From NCBI RefSeq assembly GCF_039645965.1, contig NZ_CP147917.1, positions 620,001 through 684,000 of the forward strand: a stretch of DNA of 64,000 nucleotides, read 5' to 3'. A program made the translations under genes and the position numbers. Position 1 is the stretch's first letter. Every line of letters begins with the position of its first letter. This stretch comes from Sulfurimonas sp. HSL3-2 (lineage in GTDB: Bacteria; Campylobacterota; Campylobacteria; Campylobacterales; Sulfurimonadaceae). Shown piece after piece: positions 42,923 to 50,573 of the stretch. The notes beneath the pieces were generated by a model. It had not been told where the DNA came from. It ran no database searches and was given only the letters and a program-made list of their open reading frames with translations.

Positions 42923-44098
42923 ATGACTGAAGAAATTGTAAAATCAGCTCTTTCTAAAGTTATGTATCCTGGTTTTACCAAAGATATCGTGACTTTTGGA
43001 TTTGTAAATAATATAAATATAAACGGAACTGCGGTTAGTTTTTCTGTAGATATTACATCAAGTGCACCTGAAGTGGCACAACAGATAACAGACGACGCAA
43101 CGGCTGAACTAAAAGCTGCAGGAGCGACAGATATCAATGTTGTCATCAATGCTCCTAAAATGCCGAGAGAGAGTTCATCTCACGGTAAGAATATAGCACC
43201 GCAAGTGAAAAACTTCTTGATGGTAAGTTCTGGAAAAGGTGGGGTAGGGAAGTCTACTACTTCAGTAAATATCGCTATCGCTCTTGCGATGCAGGGTAAA
43301 AAAGTAGGTCTTTTAGATGCAGACATCTATGGACCAAACGTTCCTCGTATGTTAGGTGTTGAAGGTATCAAACCTGAAGTTAACGGAAACAAAGTTCTTC
43401 CTATTAAAGCATACGGGATCGAGATGATGTCTATGGGTTCATTGATGGAACAGGGACAGTCACTTATCTGGCGTGGTGCGATGATCATGAAAGCGATCGA
43501 GCAGTTCTTGCGTGATATCTTGTGGAGCGAGTTGGATGTCTTAGTTATCGATATGCCTCCGGGAACAGGTGACGCTCAGCTGACTTTGGCTCAAAGCGTT
43601 CCTGTAACTGCAGGTCTTACTGTTACGACTCCGCAGATGGTATCACTTGATGATTCACGCCGCTCTTTAGATATGTTCAAAAAACTGAACATTCCAATAG
43701 CCGGGATCGTAGAAAATATGAGCGGATTTATCGCTCCGGATACGGGAGTCGAGTATGATATCTTCGGTAAGGGCACAACACAGCCTATGGCTGATGAGTT
43801 CAATACGACTATCGTAGCTGAGATCCCGATAGAGCCGGCTGTAAGAACAGGTGGAGATGAGGGTAAACCTATCACTTACGCTGTTCCTACAAGCGAGACT
43901 GCAAAACGTTATATGGCTGCTGCTGAAAAAGTATGGGCTATGATCGAAAAGATCAATGAAGAGGGCGGAGTAGATAATCAAGCTATCCAGCCTAATACAC
44001 CTCCGGGAGTAAGTGCGTGTTCAACTGCAGCTGCTCCAAAAAAAGAACCTGAACAAGCTGCTTCAGGAAGCTGCGGCACAGGATGCGGCTGCCACTAA
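42923..44098 (+). CDS. mrp: Iron-sulfur carrier ATPase Mrp/ApbC
   Basis: P-loop ATPase that carries Fe-S clusters, 391 residues. An N-terminal FeS-assembly (DUF59-type) domain (1-75) precedes the ATPase with deviant Walker A SGKGGVGKSTTSVNIA (about 101-116), IDMPPGTGD and the CSxC-like region. The tail ends CSTAAAPKK, then SCGTGCGCH; this cysteine-rich C-terminus may bind a cluster or metal. The start has AAAAGGAAAATTTTTA. A long hairpin made of two TTACATGTAA copies follows. Confidence 0.92.
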   Translation: MTEEIVKSALSKVMYPGFTKDIVTFGFVNNININGTAVSFSVDITSSAPEVAQQITDDATAELKAAGATDINVVINAPKMPRESSSHGKNIAPQVKNFLMVSSGKGGVGKSTTSVNIAIALAMQGKKVGLLDADIYGPNVPRMLGVEGIKPEVNGNKVLPIKAYGIEMMSMGSLMEQGQSLIWRGAMIMKAIEQFLRDILWSELDVLVIDMPPGTGDAQLTLAQSVPVTAGLTVTTPQMVSLDDSRRSLDMFKKLNIPIAGIVENMSGFIAPDTGVEYDIFGKGTTQPMADEFNTTIVAEIPIEPAVRTGGDEGKPITYAVPTSETAKRYMAAAEKVWAMIEKINEEGGVDNQAIQPNTPPGVSACSTAAAPKKEPEQAASGSCGTGCGCH

Positions 44099-44145: not shown

Positions 44146-44422
44146 ACACCTTGTATTCTTCTTTAAATATCTTCTTTTTTTCTACTAATATAAAGTTTTC
44201 ATTACAAATGACAATTAACACAAAATTAACAGTTATATGTTAAAAATATACATACTAAATATAAAATTGGGTGTGAAAGGGGGAATTGTTAAGGCGCTTG
44301 TCTATGAAAAAGTTTGGCGACTCACATAGACAAGCAAAGGTTGCTAAGCAACGCTTTTATTATACAAAAAATATATTTAAGCGTTGCTTCTTACTATAAA
44401 TATCATTTATAAAAGGAAGTGA
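44146..44422 (+). promoter_or_regulatory. Leader and promoter region of the b/c haem locus
   Basis: 277 bases without a gene. Three inverted repeats occur: GCTTGTCTATG/CATAGACAAGC (44296-44306 and 44325-44335, 11 bp, loop 18); GTTGCT-A-AGCAAC (44340-44352); and AAGCAACGCTT/AAGCGTTGCTT (44346-44356 and 44379-44389, 11 bp, loop 22). The last two share bases and cannot form together, which is the layout of a switch or attenuator. The TATA-like TTATTATAC (44357-44365) lies in the last loop, so protein operators are an alternative reading. AAAAGGAAGTGA is the ribosome-binding site of the next gene. Confidence 0.5.
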
Positions 44423-45817
44423 ATGTTTGATTATCCGATATTTGAGATGCCTGTAATAGGGCAACGAATGTTGATGGCTATTAATGCCATTATTCATGTG
44501 TTTGTTTCTCATGGTGGAGCTGTCGGAGGCTCCGTAGTATTAGCTCTGCTGGCAGTATGGGCTCATAAGAGAAACGATATGGCCGCTTACAATATGACCT
44601 TTAAGTTGTTAATGGTGTTTTTCATCATCTCAACATCCGTAGGTGCATTAACAGGTATAGGTATGTGGATACATGCCAATATCCTAAGTCCGAATGCTAT
44701 CGGCGGGTTAATAAGGGTCTTCTTTTGGAAGTGGTTTACAGAGTGGATCGTATTTAATTTCGAAGTCGTTTTACTGTTATTTTGGTTTATGACATGGAAG
44801 AAGAATGCGACCACTGCTGAGGGACGTGCCAAGTCAAATCGCATAGGTATATTTTACGCTATCTCCTCATGGCTTACTATGGTCATAATTACCGCAATAT
44901 TAGCTTTTATGTTGACTCCAAACTTTGCAGGTCAGCCTTGGGTCGATCCTGAAGTATTTCCAGGAAAAGTCAACTATATGAACGCTTTATTTAATCCTAC
45001 TTGGGGACCTTCCCTTGCGTTTAGAACATTTTCATCCATCGCGTTTGCAGCTTCATTAGCGATCATGTGGACATGGATCATAAGTACTTTTTCATCAAAT
45101 GAAGAAGATAAAGATGCAAAACCAAGGATGATAAAGTTCTTAGCAAAGATCATGATCATCACTGTACCGCTCTCTATTGCATTTGGATACTGGTACTTGA
45201 GTATTATCCCTGAATCCGCAAAAGCGATGATCCCTACTGCGATCATGACAAGAGCGTTTGCTGATAAGTTTGACATGATGTACACGTTAATTATAGGTAT
45301 CGGTGTAGTCGTTTTGCTTACGACGATCATCGCATACTTCGCTCCTAAAAGGATGCCGTATGTCGCTGCAAGTGCGATGGTCATCGCATTCTTACTCTTT
45401 TGGGGATATGAAGAGAGAGTAAGGGAGTTTATCAGAAAACCTTTTATTATCTACAACTATATGTATTCAAACGGTATACGTCCTACAGATGTCCCGTATC
45501 TCAATAAAGCAGGAATACTAAAGCATGCAATATTTATCGAAGACAAAAATAAGATATTAAAGCCTGACGGAAGCAATATTGAAGATGTCGGTCACTCCGT
45601 ATTTCAAATCGAGTGTAGGATCTGTCATACTAGAAACGGTATCAACGGTTTGAAAAAACTTACAAGCGGGTGGTCAAAAGATGCGATCCGCGCAAGGCTT
45701 AACAATCTGCCTGGAGGCGGGACTCCATACATGCCGCCGTTTGTCGGAACGGAACAAGATAAAGATGCGCTTGCAGCATATCTGTTTTCTTTAAATAAAA
45801 AAGGAGAATTAAAATGA
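44423..45817 (+). CDS. Membrane haem protein, bd-oxidase-like core with C-terminal cytochrome c
   Basis: A 464-residue protein with about nine membrane segments, then a periplasmic cytochrome c domain with one haem motif CRICH (about 398-402) and a likely Met ligand in PYMPPF. The membrane part has histidines in HVFVSHGG, GMWIHANI and others, and NFAGQPWVDP resembles the GRQPW stretch of cytochrome bd subunit I, but the rest of the CydA signature is not evident. A quinol-oxidising, membrane b-haem/c-haem subunit is the best guess. The next gene overlaps by 4 bases and has the same plan. I do not recognise a characterised family. Confidence 0.65.
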   Translation: MFDYPIFEMPVIGQRMLMAINAIIHVFVSHGGAVGGSVVLALLAVWAHKRNDMAAYNMTFKLLMVFFIISTSVGALTGIGMWIHANILSPNAIGGLIRVFFWKWFTEWIVFNFEVVLLLFWFMTWKKNATTAEGRAKSNRIGIFYAISSWLTMVIITAILAFMLTPNFAGQPWVDPEVFPGKVNYMNALFNPTWGPSLAFRTFSSIAFAASLAIMWTWIISTFSSNEEDKDAKPRMIKFLAKIMIITVPLSIAFGYWYLSIIPESAKAMIPTAIMTRAFADKFDMMYTLIIGIGVVVLLTTIIAYFAPKRMPYVAASAMVIAFLLFWGYEERVREFIRKPFIIYNYMYSNGIRPTDVPYLNKAGILKHAIFIEDKNKILKPDGSNIEDVGHSVFQIECRICHTRNGINGLKKLTSGWSKDAIRARLNNLPGGGTPYMPPFVGTEQDKDALAAYLFSLNKKGELK

Positions 45818-47136
45818 ATTGGAAATTACCTTTTGATATACCTTTAGTTACTCCTACTATGGGGATACCGATAGAGTTTTATGATGCTCTAGGAATCATT
45901 GTTTTTGTCATTCATATCTCATTTATATATGTTCTCATAGGTGCGTCGACGGCATCGGTCATATACAATGTAATGGGTGTATTTAAAAAAGATAAAAACT
46001 ATGACAAGCTTGCATATAACATGACAAATCCGACTACCATATCGGAAAATATGGGTGCACTTTGGGGAGTGGCTCCGCTGCTTGTGATCTCGGTACTGTA
46101 TACAGGATTTTTTTATACGGCGATACTTAAAGTCTCGCCGCATATCCTGCATATAATCTATGGAAACATCTTTGCCTTTTTGCTTTCATATGCATATAAA
46201 TTCAGCTGGCATAAGCTAAGTGATTCAAAAGGGTTCCATATTGCCATCGGTCTTGTCGCCGTGTTGGTATTTTATTCGCTGCCGCCTGTTTTTATGTCTA
46301 TGGCGAATCTTTATCTGCAGCCAGAGACATTTGCAACAGTTCAAAATATATGGGACATTATGCTGACACCGTTAACGGGCTTTAGACTTCTAAACTTCTT
46401 CTTAACGGCATTTGGGTTTACCGGGATATTTATGATCTGGTACGGTATGAGAATGCAGAAAAACGGCGAGGAAGAAGTCGGTAAGATAGCGGTCAATCAA
46501 GGTAAGAAATGGTTTATGTTTTCTACGCCTGTAAATGTCGCGATATTGCCTTTGCTCCTCTTTGCATTTTCACCGAGAATAGCTGAAGGACTGATGGGTA
46601 CGGTTTTTATATATCTGCCTTTTTTTGCTTCTATTGTCTTAACGATCATCTTTTTTTATCTAATGAGAAGATGGAAGAAAGATACATTCAGCTCTAAAGA
46701 GGTTTTTACTGTCGCATTGATGATGGTGTTTTCTGTTGTGTTGATGGCAACTGCAAGACACGGAATAAGAGTCGTTTCATTCAAAGAACCTCTGGCAATC
46801 CAAGCTGCAGCGACAAAAGCCTATATGACGGCATCACTCTCCGAATATAAAAAATATAAAGAGAGTATGAAAAATGTCGTGAAGAAAGATCTTAGCAATC
46901 CGGCAACTTTAGCCGAGTCAAAAGGGTGTCTGGCATGTCACAGTATCGACACGACACTTGTAGGACCGGCATACAAAGAGGTTGCTGCGAAATATAGTTC
47001 GGCACAGCAGATCGTGAATTCTATTAAAAATGGAAGTGAAGGCAAATGGGGAACCATTGCAATGCCTGCGCAGGATGTCGATGACAAGGAAGCAAATATA
47101 CTTGCTGACTGGGTGTTGTCGCAAAAACAAAACTAA
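45814..47136 (+). CDS. Second membrane haem protein with C-terminal cytochrome c
   Basis: A 440-residue protein with about nine membrane segments and a C-terminal monohaem cytochrome c domain (CLACH, about 373-377; Met ligand in IAMPAQ). Membrane histidines occur in FVIHISFIYVL, LHIIYGN, FSWHKLS and GFHIAIG. It repeats the plan of the preceding gene, and the 4-base overlap argues for a two-subunit complex. The soluble haem domain could hand electrons to a periplasmic acceptor. No oxidase or reductase active-site signature is visible. A 10-bp hairpin overlaps the stop. Confidence 0.65.
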   Translation: MNWKLPFDIPLVTPTMGIPIEFYDALGIIVFVIHISFIYVLIGASTASVIYNVMGVFKKDKNYDKLAYNMTNPTTISENMGALWGVAPLLVISVLYTGFFYTAILKVSPHILHIIYGNIFAFLLSYAYKFSWHKLSDSKGFHIAIGLVAVLVFYSLPPVFMSMANLYLQPETFATVQNIWDIMLTPLTGFRLLNFFLTAFGFTGIFMIWYGMRMQKNGEEEVGKIAVNQGKKWFMFSTPVNVAILPLLLFAFSPRIAEGLMGTVFIYLPFFASIVLTIIFFYLMRRWKKDTFSSKEVFTVALMMVFSVVLMATARHGIRVVSFKEPLAIQAAATKAYMTASLSEYKKYKESMKNVVKKDLSNPATLAESKGCLACHSIDTTLVGPAYKEVAAKYSSAQQIVNSIKNGSEGKWGTIAMPAQDVDDKEANILADWVLSQKQN

Positions 47137-47155
47137 TCGGAGTTTCTCCGATTAG
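47133..47155 (+). terminator. Perfect 10-bp hairpin at the end of the haem gene pair
   Basis: CTAATCGGAG-TTT-CTCCGATTAG begins at the stop codon. A U-run is weak (CCTTTATG), so it may be a partial terminator separating the pair from the thioredoxin-like gene, or an RNA stabiliser. Confidence 0.6.
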
Positions 47156-47262
47156 CCTTTATGTAAGAGAGTCAAACTATTTATCAAATATGTAAAAAAC
47201 TCCTAGATTCAAAGCGTGGAACACCGGCTCTCTTTCATAAATGCTATATAAGGATATTCTAG

Positions 47263-47748
47263 ATGTTCAAAATAATAGTGGCCTGTATATTTTTTATAAA
47301 TATATATGCCAATGATATTTTACAAGAGCAGATAGACACAGAGAATAAAACAATCACTATATTGTGTTTTTATACGACCTGGTGTCCGGCATGTAAAAAA
47401 AGCATCGAGTTACTAAATGAAATAGATAAAAACCTACATACTAAAGTGAAAGTCATAGGAATCGATTTGGATGACGGGATAAAAAGAAAAAACTATATAG
47501 AAAGTCTTGATATCAGGTTTAAAGTGATCAACCAGAACCTTTTGCAAGCTAGAAGATATGGTGTTAAAGACTCTGTGCCCGTTATTTTAATAGTGGGTGA
47601 GCATCGCACTATTGTCAAAAGATTTTACGAACTTCCAAACAGAAAGTATTTTTTTGCATTGATACAGAGACTGAGCAGCGGATATCTAGAAAACGGGACA
47701 TTACCCGTCCAAGAGAGAATCGATTTATGGAAAAAGAGCAGGGACTGA
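47263..47748 (+). CDS. Periplasmic thioredoxin-like protein (TlpA type)
   Basis: A 161-residue protein with a signal peptide (1-16, cleaving near IYANDIL) and a thioredoxin fold: CFYTTWCPACKKS with CPAC as active site, and VPVILIV with the cis-proline at about 106. TlpA/ResA-type proteins reduce apo-cytochrome c cysteines or assemble metal centres. Next to two haem-c proteins and an Fe-S membrane protein, a maturation role is likely. It starts 127 bases after the haem pair, and the next gene starts 3 bases after its stop. Confidence 0.78.
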   Translation: MFKIIVACIFFINIYANDILQEQIDTENKTITILCFYTTWCPACKKSIELLNEIDKNLHTKVKVIGIDLDDGIKRKNYIESLDIRFKVINQNLLQARRYGVKDSVPVILIVGEHRTIVKRFYELPNRKYFFALIQRLSSGYLENGTLPVQERIDLWKKSRD

Positions 47749-47751
47749 CTT

Positions 47752-48741
47752 GTGACACAATATTTAAGACAGCATCAAAATAAGAAAGCTCTCATTGCCA
47801 TTTTTATAACGTTATCGGCAGTGGCAGTCCCAATGTTTCAATATAACTCCATCCATCTTCTTTTATTCAATTTCTATAATCAAAGATTTGAACTTTTTTT
47901 TCATGCATGGGAGGTAAATACGGCCGGATTAATAAATATCTTTATACTGTTCGCAGCAGCTGTCATCCTTTTATTCAACTTTACATACTCCAGATATTTT
48001 TGCGGAAATATCTGTCCTAAGACACTACTGAACAATCTTTTTACCGATATTATTGAAACAAGAATCTTTCATTTATTCAAAATCAAGAACAGAGATGATG
48101 AGCAGAGTTTTGAAAAAAATAGACTAAAACTCTTTTTTGCATACGCTTTTTTGGCTGTTGTGATCATATTCGGTTCTATGCCTATATTCTTTTATTTTAT
48201 ACCGTACGATATCTTTTTTTCTATGCTTAAAAACTACTTTCTCGGGTATCGGTTCTTACTTTACATCTGGATATTAAGTGCAATCTATCTTTTTGCCGAG
48301 ATTCTCTTTTTAAAAGAGTTTTTTTGTGCTTATATTTGTCCATATCAGCTTGTTAACTCCATCACGGTAAACGAACAAAGAGGCTTTTATACTTTTGATA
48401 CTAAAGAAAAATGTATCGACTGTGAAGCTTGCGTTAATGTATGCCCTGTCCCGGAGTTAGATGTAAGAAAAGGGTATGATACTCGATGTATAGCCTGCGG
48501 TGATTGCAGTGCAGTATGTCATGATGTAATGCAAAAACGGGGAGGAGAGAGGAGCCTGATAGAGTATAAGGACTTTATCAAAAGAAAGAGCCTGCCATAT
48601 CTTTCTTTTGCAGGCAGGCGGACATCTTTACTTTTGATCGCTTTGACTTTAGCAGGTAGCTCTTTAATAGTCTACTACCTTATATCACCGGAACATCTAA
48701 GTTCCTGTAATATCGCTAATGCTTTTTTATACAGAGATTAG
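47752..48741 (+). CDS. NapH/CcoG-like polyferredoxin membrane protein
   Basis: A 329-residue inner-membrane protein with about five membrane segments, two CxxxCP motifs facing one side (CGNICPKTLL, CAYICPYQLV) and two 4Fe-4S sites, CIDCEACVNVCP and CIACGDCSAVC. This is the NapH/NosR/CcoG/RdxA plan. CcoG relatives handle copper for oxidase assembly; NapH relatives pass quinol electrons. The gene starts with GTG. Its 3' end overlaps the convergent diguanylate cyclase gene by 4 bases. In this locus it could deliver electrons to or mature the haem complex. Confidence 0.8.
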   Translation: MTQYLRQHQNKKALIAIFITLSAVAVPMFQYNSIHLLLFNFYNQRFELFFHAWEVNTAGLINIFILFAAAVILLFNFTYSRYFCGNICPKTLLNNLFTDIIETRIFHLFKIKNRDDEQSFEKNRLKLFFAYAFLAVVIIFGSMPIFFYFIPYDIFFSMLKNYFLGYRFLLYIWILSAIYLFAEILFLKEFFCAYICPYQLVNSITVNEQRGFYTFDTKEKCIDCEACVNVCPVPELDVRKGYDTRCIACGDCSAVCHDVMQKRGGERSLIEYKDFIKRKSLPYLSFAGRRTSLLLIALTLAGSSLIVYYLISPEHLSSCNIANAFLYRD

Positions 48742-50573
48742 AAATCTTCACCTTCGAACATTTCAGGTTTAAACTCTATAACTTGATTTCTACCATGCTC
48801 TTTTGCATAGTAAAGTGCAGTGTCCGCAAACTTGATACATTTCCAGATAGAATTCGCATCATCTGGGAATTGTGCTACACCGATACTGATAGTTTTTTGC
48901 AGTAGCTCTCCACCTACATTAAACTTCATCTTATTGAACTCGTCATGGATCTTTTTAGCAACAGTTATAGAGCCTTCTCTTGATGCATTGTTTAACAAGA
49001 TAACAAACTCTTCACCGCCGTAGCGGATAGCAAGATCAGCATCTCTAATAGATTTTTTGATAACTTCAGCAAGCCCTTTGATGACTATATCGCCTATATC
49101 ATGACCGTAAGTATCGTTTACCATTTTAAAGTAGTCGATATCCAGCATTAAAACACTGTAGTTCGTTTCATTTCTAAGTGCTTGTTTTGCCATTTTATCG
49201 ATGAACTGTTCTAGGAATCTTCTGTTATAGATACCTGTCATACCATCTCTTAAAGTCGTGTCTCTGAGTTTGTCAGTTAAGATTTTTGACTCGATCACAG
49301 GCTTAGCTGCTTCTATATAGTTTTTGATACTTGTTACATTCATACTGATCTGCTCGAACTTAGCCGGATCATCAACTACAATATTTAGTGTCAGTGAAAC
49401 TTCGTCATTTATATCAAAAGGGATACAGATATATTCATTCTCATTATGGTGACAGCTGCTGCATAGATTTGGAAAGTCTGTAGAAACGATATCCGTATCG
49501 GTTCTGTACGCTCTACACAGGTCTACGTTTTTATCGACATTGGCATCACAATAACTTTTGTGAGATATATAGATGGGCTCTCTTATTTTTTGTGTTCTGT
49601 CGATCTCAAAAAACGAAAAGTTATGAATGTCATATTTTGTCTGCATGACAGTGATAATTCTATCAAAGACCAGTTCTTTTGTATCATCGAGTTCTATCGT
49701 CTTTTTAAATTTATAGATATCTGCCAGTTCTTTGATGATTATTTTCGCTTCATAAAGAGGATCTGAACATCCTAGATTTGATTTTGTCACAAATGTCGTC
49801 AGACTGTGCTTGATCTCGCCGAATGTCTCCTGCATTTTGTGAAAGAGAGTATTGATCTGATCTGCGACCTCTTTTCCTTCACCCGATACTCTTGTATCGA
49901 ATCTATGTGAGAAGTCACCGCTGTGAGCTTTTTGGATCCCGTCTCTAAGGTTTGCAAAAAGTTCCATATATGGTTTGATATAATAGTTCAGGACAAGAAG
50001 AGCTATAAATATAAATATGACGTTGATACCGAATATCTTTAAAATTGTGATTGTACTGGCATTTCTGACACTGTTGATATCAAACTCCATGCTAACGGCA
50101 CCGAGAATATCTCCGTCATTTACGCTATGACACTCGAGACAACTTACTTTAGCGGTGCTGTCGGCTATATATGGAATCGTTATCCGTAGTTTTACTTCTT
50201 CAGGATTTTCTATGACCTTCTTTATCATCTTTCCGGATGAGAGCACATCTTTGTCTATATCATCACGGGCATTTTCATAACTGTAGCCTTTCCCGTATTG
50301 ATCGATTACATTTTGACCTCGTGCGATCCATAACTTCTTAATTTCATTGTTCTGAGTGATCGTATCAAGGAAATATTTGCGTTTGTCCATTATCCCGTTG
50401 ACCATATGCGCAGTCAGACCGTCTTTAACTATGTTGGCAGTTAGTTTGGCTTTATCGACCGCAGCATTGATGGCAAACTCTCTAAAGTTTAAACCGACAT
50501 TGACAATAGTTGCCGTGGCTAGAGCCGCGAGCATCAGTGTAACCATTAAAAGAAGTTTATTTTTAGTATTCAT
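48738..50573 (-). CDS. Diguanylate cyclase with periplasmic haem-c sensor
   Basis: A 611-residue membrane sensor: membrane segment (7-28), periplasmic domain (29-170) with the haem-c motif CLECH (145-149), a second membrane segment (about 178-198), HAMP (199-255), a middle cytoplasmic region, and a GGDEF domain with GGEEF (519-523) and an inhibitory site RDAD (510-513). The periplasmic domain is of the Tll0287/DUF3365 type that binds haem c and senses redox state or gas. The middle region has another cysteine set, C353 and CSSCH (371-375), which would face the cytoplasm and cannot be a c-haem site; a Zn or Fe centre is possible. Expected to make c-di-GMP. Confidence 0.85.
   Translation of the reverse strand: MNTKNKLLLMVTLMLAALATATIVNVGLNFREFAINAAVDKAKLTANIVKDGLTAHMVNGIMDKRKYFLDTITQNNEIKKLWIARGQNVIDQYGKGYSYENARDDIDKDVLSSGKMIKKVIENPEEVKLRITIPYIADSTAKVSCLECHSVNDGDILGAVSMEFDINSVRNASTITILKIFGINVIFIFIALLVLNYYIKPYMELFANLRDGIQKAHSGDFSHRFDTRVSGEGKEVADQINTLFHKMQETFGEIKHSLTTFVTKSNLGCSDPLYEAKIIIKELADIYKFKKTIELDDTKELVFDRIITVMQTKYDIHNFSFFEIDRTQKIREPIYISHKSYCDANVDKNVDLCRAYRTDTDIVSTDFPNLCSSCHHNENEYICIPFDINDEVSLTLNIVVDDPAKFEQISMNVTSIKNYIEAAKPVIESKILTDKLRDTTLRDGMTGIYNRRFLEQFIDKMAKQALRNETNYSVLMLDIDYFKMVNDTYGHDIGDIVIKGLAEVIKKSIRDADLAIRYGGEEFVILLNNASREGSITVAKKIHDEFNKMKFNVGGELLQKTISIGVAQFPDDANSIWKCIKFADTALYYAKEHGRNQVIEFKPEMFEGEDF

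Follow-up and report, generated by a model that had tools for sequence, protein, structure and literature searches.

The window analysed here is a 64,000-nt stretch of the Sulfurimonas sp. HSL3-2 genome (NZ_CP147917.1, 620,001-684,000, forward strand), and all coordinates are positions within it. The window contains a four-gene operon (P1 to P4) that probably encodes an oxygen reductase of the cytochrome bd superfamily, fed by a periplasmic cytochrome c and not by quinol, together with two helper proteins. This assignment draws on sequence comparison and on structure models. The four genes are as follows.

44423-45817, + strand: P1, predicted catalytic CydA-like subunit, 464 aa (CydA homology, model fold, ligand conservation)
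45814-47136, + strand: P2, apparent degenerate paralogue of P1 in the place of CydB, 440 aa (hhalign, model fold, c551 match)
47263-47748, + strand: P3, thioredoxin-fold protein (PF00578, E 6.8e-10)
47752-48741, + strand: P4, short CcoG-like membrane ferredoxin with a GTG start (TIGR02745, 139 bits)

The genes are consecutive on the + strand and the open reading frames (ORFs) of P1 and P2 overlap by 4 bases. An earlier description of this DNA, made without database searches (the sequence-only reading), had reported the same arrangement of two adjacent membrane proteins followed by thioredoxin-like and CcoG/NapH-like genes. The order P1-P2-P3-P4 also occurs in 12 other fetched Campylobacterota loci, across which the identities are 75-80% for P1, 65-70% for P2 and near 30-37% for P3 and P4. 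The four genes are a genuine conserved operon, far beyond what chance would give.

P1 and P2 are both distant homologues of CydA. Searched against proteins of known structure, both find Geobacillus CydA (5doq_A), with an E-value of 7.5e-6 for P1 (phmmer) and 1.6e-4 for P2. Profile comparison, a check that the sequence-only reading had proposed, gives 1.2e-10 and 5.8e-9 to the same protein. The weak likeness to cytochrome bd noted in that reading is borne out as homology. Models of the two proteins were made with AlphaFold2 without templates and have moderate mean predicted local distance difference test scores (pLDDT 65.5 for P1, 69.4 for P2). The P1 model superimposes on CydA with a Z-score of 23.6 across 324 residues (4.4 A) and the P2 model with 24.7 across 300 residues (3.4 A). 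For both models the top ten entries are all bd oxidases, with CydA chains at Z 21-25, and the next best are ActC/ActF of alternative complex III at Z 15-18. About eight long helices, and not the nine or so first claimed, are predicted ahead of the cytochrome c domain in each protein. On sequence and fold, and for P1 also on its ligands, P1 and P2 are both assigned to the cytochrome bd superfamily. The two-subunit membrane haem complex with helper genes described in the sequence-only reading therefore stands, but it is not an unrecognised one. Neither protein matches PF00115, the COX1 catalytic subunit of haem-copper oxidases (cbb3, aa3, NOR). PF01654 has no match above its cut-off in P1, in P2 or anywhere else in the genome.

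Fifty-one P1 sequences, drawn from Campylobacterota, Aquificota and Bacillota, were aligned with 12 canonical CydA sequences. E. coli H19, E99, E107 and E445 correspond to P1 H25, E107, E114 and E335, and all four are invariant in 51/51. In cytochrome bd these residues bind the two high-spin haems or belong to their proton path. The sequence-only reading had seen no standard oxidase centre, but the complete set of CydA high-spin haem-site residues is present in P1. It had also taken NFAGQPWVDP for a bd-like motif; these residues (168-177) are a variable loop after helix 4, and the true equivalent of the GRQPW motif is RKPF at residues 338-341, in which R448 and P450 of GRQPW are conserved. The alignment also indicates what has been lost. 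The Q-loop (K252/E257, between helices 6 and 7) is a missing segment in P1 and all 51 relatives, and neither of the haem b558 ligands, H186 and M393, is found in the P1 family. Residues that are invariant and specific to the family are H30, W82, W102, W104, W108, R334 and K339. H30 (window 44510-44512) is a second invariant histidine on helix 1, five residues past the haem-site histidine, and is absent from canonical CydA; it may be a family-specific ligand or a residue of the proton path. From these residues we infer that P1 is the catalytic subunit and holds, within its helices, two high-spin haems at the b595 and d sites, where the haem type is not predictable.

Each membrane protein ends in one monohaem cytochrome c domain, as had been recognised from the sequence. 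In P1 the domain follows the last helix (residues ~389-454, CXXCH at 398-402, PF13442 E 3.7e-9), and its haem c is invariant across Campylobacterota, Aquificota and Bacillota. In P2 it spans residues 362-438 (CXXCH at 372-376) and resembles Pseudomonas c551 (E 2.7e-23). The P2 domain is restricted to operons of the four-gene type and is absent from P2 of Bacillota and from the P2 of a second, two-gene form described below. The membrane part of P2 aligns to P1 over 291 columns (hhalign, E 5.3e-10) and has no match to E. coli CydB by the same method (E 0.41). It retains a single, invariant helix-1 histidine (H34), while the catalytic glutamate positions are lost. By these comparisons P2 is a paralogue of P1 that has degenerated catalytically and stands in for CydB. 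Its fusion to a c551-type domain suggests that the ancestral donor was a soluble cytochrome c.

Although the sequence-only reading left the electron route unknown, one can now be proposed. A periplasmic cytochrome c would reduce the tethered haem c of P1 and, in the four-gene form, also the c551 domain of P2. From the tethered haem or haems c, electrons would go straight to the P1 dihaem centre and there reduce O2. The haem c at the C-terminus of P1 would thus take over from quinol and haem b558 as the point of electron entry. In this scheme the superfamily, the fold, the ligand conservation, the loss of the quinol and b558 sites, the paralogy of P2, the conservation of the operon and its sharing of a site with the two-gene form were computed; O2 as substrate, cytochrome c as donor, the number of haems and the roles of P3 and P4 are what we read into them.

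P3 and P4 are confined to the four-gene form. P3 has a hydrophobic N-terminus, a CXXC motif (C41, C44) and a C-terminal tail ENGTLP..R.D.W, and is probably exported. It is present in 13/13 of these operons with the CXXC and the tail invariant. P4 has two [4Fe-4S] motifs, CX3C pairs at C84/C88 and C192/C196 and a lone C319; the twelve motif cysteines and C319 are invariant in 13/13. The CX3C pairs and the two [4Fe-4S] motifs are shared with CcoG (RdxA/FixG), an assembly factor of cbb3 oxidases. Unlike CcoG, P4 lacks the C-terminal part, its match to the family model TIGR02745 is limited to residues 9-307 and far under the cut-off (139 bits against 316.7), and it tracks the operon, with the short form found there in 11/11 genomes that have it and in 0/8 genomes that do not. 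A full-length CcoG is located elsewhere in the same genome. P3 and P4 together are a probable relay that would carry cytoplasmic electrons to a periplasmic thioredoxin. One use of such a relay might be to keep the CXXCH cysteines reduced until haem is attached. This part for P3 and P4 is the weakest step of the proposed mechanism.

Several points weigh against the proposed cytochrome c-fed oxygen reductase. The models are of moderate confidence and contain no haems. Pfam and NCBIfam assign the membrane parts of P1 and P2 to no family and recognise only the cytochrome c domains. PHROGs likewise gave nothing for the membrane parts; the absence of a library name was not counted as novelty. CcoG-like genes usually serve copper enzymes, and nothing in this operon looks like a copper site. 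P1 and P2 may also have a quinol site that escaped recognition, or may reduce something other than O2.

Three other explanations were weighed. The complex could transfer electrons between quinone and cytochrome c, in the forward or reverse direction, without reducing O2. This has been hypothesised for bd-like proteins of Nitrospina that lack the Q-loop (PMC3578206), and ActC/ActF are the nearest matches of the models after CydA. These matches are clearly below CydA, however, and, unlike alternative complex III, the operon has no act genes beside it. P1 keeps the invariant O2-site ligands but has lost the Q-loop and both ligands of b558, which disfavours a quinol:cytochrome c oxidoreductase, the option that the sequence-only reading had placed beside a terminal reductase. 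A terminal reductase is the probable choice, and the quinone-cytochrome c explanation is considered unlikely. It is similarly improbable that this bd-type enzyme acts, in detoxification or respiration, on nitric oxide or some other small molecule and not on O2. In favour of this idea, the genome lacks a second, NorB-like COX1 match, nosLYFD genes are found near one relative in Bacillota, and the c551-like domain resembles denitrifier cytochromes. However, the genome has no cytochrome cd1 nitrite reductase, none that is convincing was found in 13 genomes searched, the nos link is missing at two other Bacillota loci, and no denitrification gene is a consistent neighbour in the loci inspected. 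Two narrower versions were rejected. A link to N2O respiration was suggested by nosD, nosL, nosY and nosF near the Siminovitchia pair (L006/L099), but these genes are absent at L097 and L098. A stand-in for a missing nitric oxide reductase beside NirS fails because the genome has no cytochrome cd1 nitrite reductase. The least probable explanation, and a very doubtful one, is a quinol oxidase whose quinol site is of a new kind and whose haem c domains serve electron storage or side entry: a related archaeal CydAA', from the work of Murali et al. in 2021, reportedly oxidises quinol, but P1 has no trace of the Q-loop or the b558 ligands and its haem c is a conserved addition.

The proposed cytochrome c-fed oxygen reductase can be set beside canonical and unusual published systems. 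Like canonical CydAB (E. coli bd-I, Geobacillus bd), P1 and P2 have the CydA fold and P1 keeps the equivalents of H19, E99, E107, E445 and R448/P450. Unlike it, they are without the Q-loop, H186, M393 and CydB, have haem c domains added, and the partner subunit is a paralogue of P1. There is also a likeness to the OR-C and OR-N families, which have a bd core without the quinol site, a probable cytochrome c donor and two paired CydA-type paralogues. As reported in papers citing Murali, Gennis & Hemp 2021 (PMC9266656, PMC10839748), the bd superfamily splits into qOR, OR-C and OR-N. According to the same sources some members probably use cytochrome c, and such use by OR-N, a bd family of Nitrospirota/Nitrospinota proposed by phylogenomics, awaits experimental confirmation. 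In P1 and P2 the quinol site is absent and haem c is attached, and the two proteins may be expected to fall in OR-C. A cytochrome c-using kind of bd enzyme had thus already been proposed, and what is less expected here is the helper module, the second haem c, the exchange at one chromosomal site and the leader RNA. The accessible literature was not found to describe an operon that includes P3 and P4, has a c domain on each subunit and shares its leader.

The two-gene form (form B) occurs in Campylobacterota and Aquificota. Like the four-gene form (form A), it has the two-subunit plan and the P1 ligands; unlike form A, its P1 is only about 28-31% identical, haem c is on P1 only and there is no P3 or P4. 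Among 397 sampled Campylobacterota genomes, form A is in 9 (the present one included), form B is in 44 and no genome has both. Aquificota contain both forms. In a quick tree the Campylobacterota and Aquificota A sequences group together (Shimodaira-Hasegawa-like approximate likelihood ratio test, SH-aLRT, 88), as do the B sequences (SH-aLRT 100). The placement of E. coli CydA in this tree (branch length 4.46) is unreliable and was not used.

The site of the operon is bordered by two genes that are kept throughout the genus.

42923-44098, + strand: mrp/apbC, upstream border of the variable site, beside the same site in 8/8 genomes of the genus
48738-50573, - strand: GGDEF gene, on the downstream edge of the variable site, convergent on P4 with a 4-base overlap and kept in 8/8 genomes of the genus

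The order thiC-mrp-site-ggdef is conserved in all eight genomes, with glmS and glnD next wherever the contig extends. The site between mrp and ggdef holds form A in the window, form B in one other genome (G367) and 47-178 bp with neither in the remaining six. In Arcobacteraceae-type genomes a common set of response-regulator, acetyltransferase, znuA, fur and nhaA genes adjoins form A, and in several cases form B; the conservation is limited to one side.

The region ahead of P1 has two further features.

44215-44231, + strand: TTAACACAAAATTAACA, a direct repeat with an 11-bp period, identical to a 17-mer upstream of relatives' operons
44290-44396, + strand: 5' leader RNA, likely structured as two stacked hairpins ahead of P1 (fold z-score, covariance model)

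An identical TTAACACAAAATTAACA precedes the A operons L033 and L034 and the B pairs L038, L123 and L130, and 44215-44231 is its sole exact match in the window. It is a candidate binding site for a regulator, putatively of OmpR/PhoB type. In Arcobacteraceae-type genomes some loci have a lone response regulator with no obvious kinase adjacent, both in form A (L002-L004, L027-L031) and in form B (L035, L046, L049). A lone response regulator adjoining both forms fits the direct repeat of 11-bp period that several operons have upstream. The present genome has only distant relatives (27-29%) of that regulator.

In the window's family the promoter and a leader of about 230 nt are homologous between A and B loci; an A locus (L033) and a B locus (L038) are 77% identical across 256 nt of this region. 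Leader homologues are found at seven A and B operons of the family (L032, L033, L034, L038, L040, L123, L130). A covariance model from seven relatives finds the divergent copy of the window at 44290-44396 on the right strand (E 6.4e-6, unfiltered, over 231 bases), and this copy has a fold z-score of -4.81. In the consensus, 5/33 pairs have two-sided changes and the covariation term is about zero; therefore, the structure is likely but not proven. A stricter scan of 298 genomes gave only two sites, both at these operons, and missed the weak-scoring copy of the window. A known riboswitch was rejected, since no Rfam family reaches its gathering score in the leader.

The A-type translation start of P1, ATGTTCGAT (also written GAAATGTATGTTCGAT), persists in three B loci (L038, L040, L130) about 80 nt before their own P1 start. 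It looks like the remnant of an earlier A gene; alternatively, it is a conserved upstream start codon or a variable upstream ORF. The likely history is an exchange of the coding genes downstream of a common regulatory region, an argument for one shared purpose of the two forms. The common site and leader likewise suggest that forms A and B do the same job.

The enzyme is considered accessory. The genome has one COX1-family oxidase gene, which lies elsewhere than the operon and is read as cbb3 CcoN, and has no canonical CydAB. Canonical CydA is found in 32/53 genomes with form A or B and in 160/397 overall. Because cbb3 co-occurs and many carriers also have CydAB, the enzyme does not substitute for a particular oxidase; replacement of CydAB by form A or B was rejected for lack of any exclusion. 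The operon is also absent from most close relatives. Four other genomes (G216, G302, G345, G369) have ORFs, 524-594 aa long, that score very weakly (24-30 bits) against the COX1 family, and the present genome has none.

A fuller picture can be offered, tentatively and with somewhat more doubt than belief. The operon may encode a chemically distinct bd-type terminal oxidase to which tethered haems deliver electrons straight from cytochrome c, which needs no low-spin haem b and which has its own maturation relay. Two ~30%-identical forms would have been swapped in place under one conserved leader, and that leader would be a cis-regulatory RNA of a new kind for a terminal oxidase. Sequence analysis had already led to proposals of cytochrome c-driven bd oxidases, whose function the literature consulted describes as unconfirmed. 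If the proposal is true, the enzyme would tell whether the bd dihaem centre works when haem b558 and quinol are both missing, and in what way enzymes of this kind conserve energy. The compact operon, the finished genome and the orthologous empty site in close relatives allow clean deletion and addition tests. The exchange of A and B under a shared leader points to functional equivalence, and it provides a natural comparison between an enzyme that has the second haem c and the helper pair and one that lacks them.

The GGDEF neighbour has two CXXCH motifs, CLECH in the predicted periplasmic part and CSSCH ahead of the GGDEF domain. It is possibly a haem-sensing diguanylate cyclase. The gene is kept in all congeners, with or without the operon.

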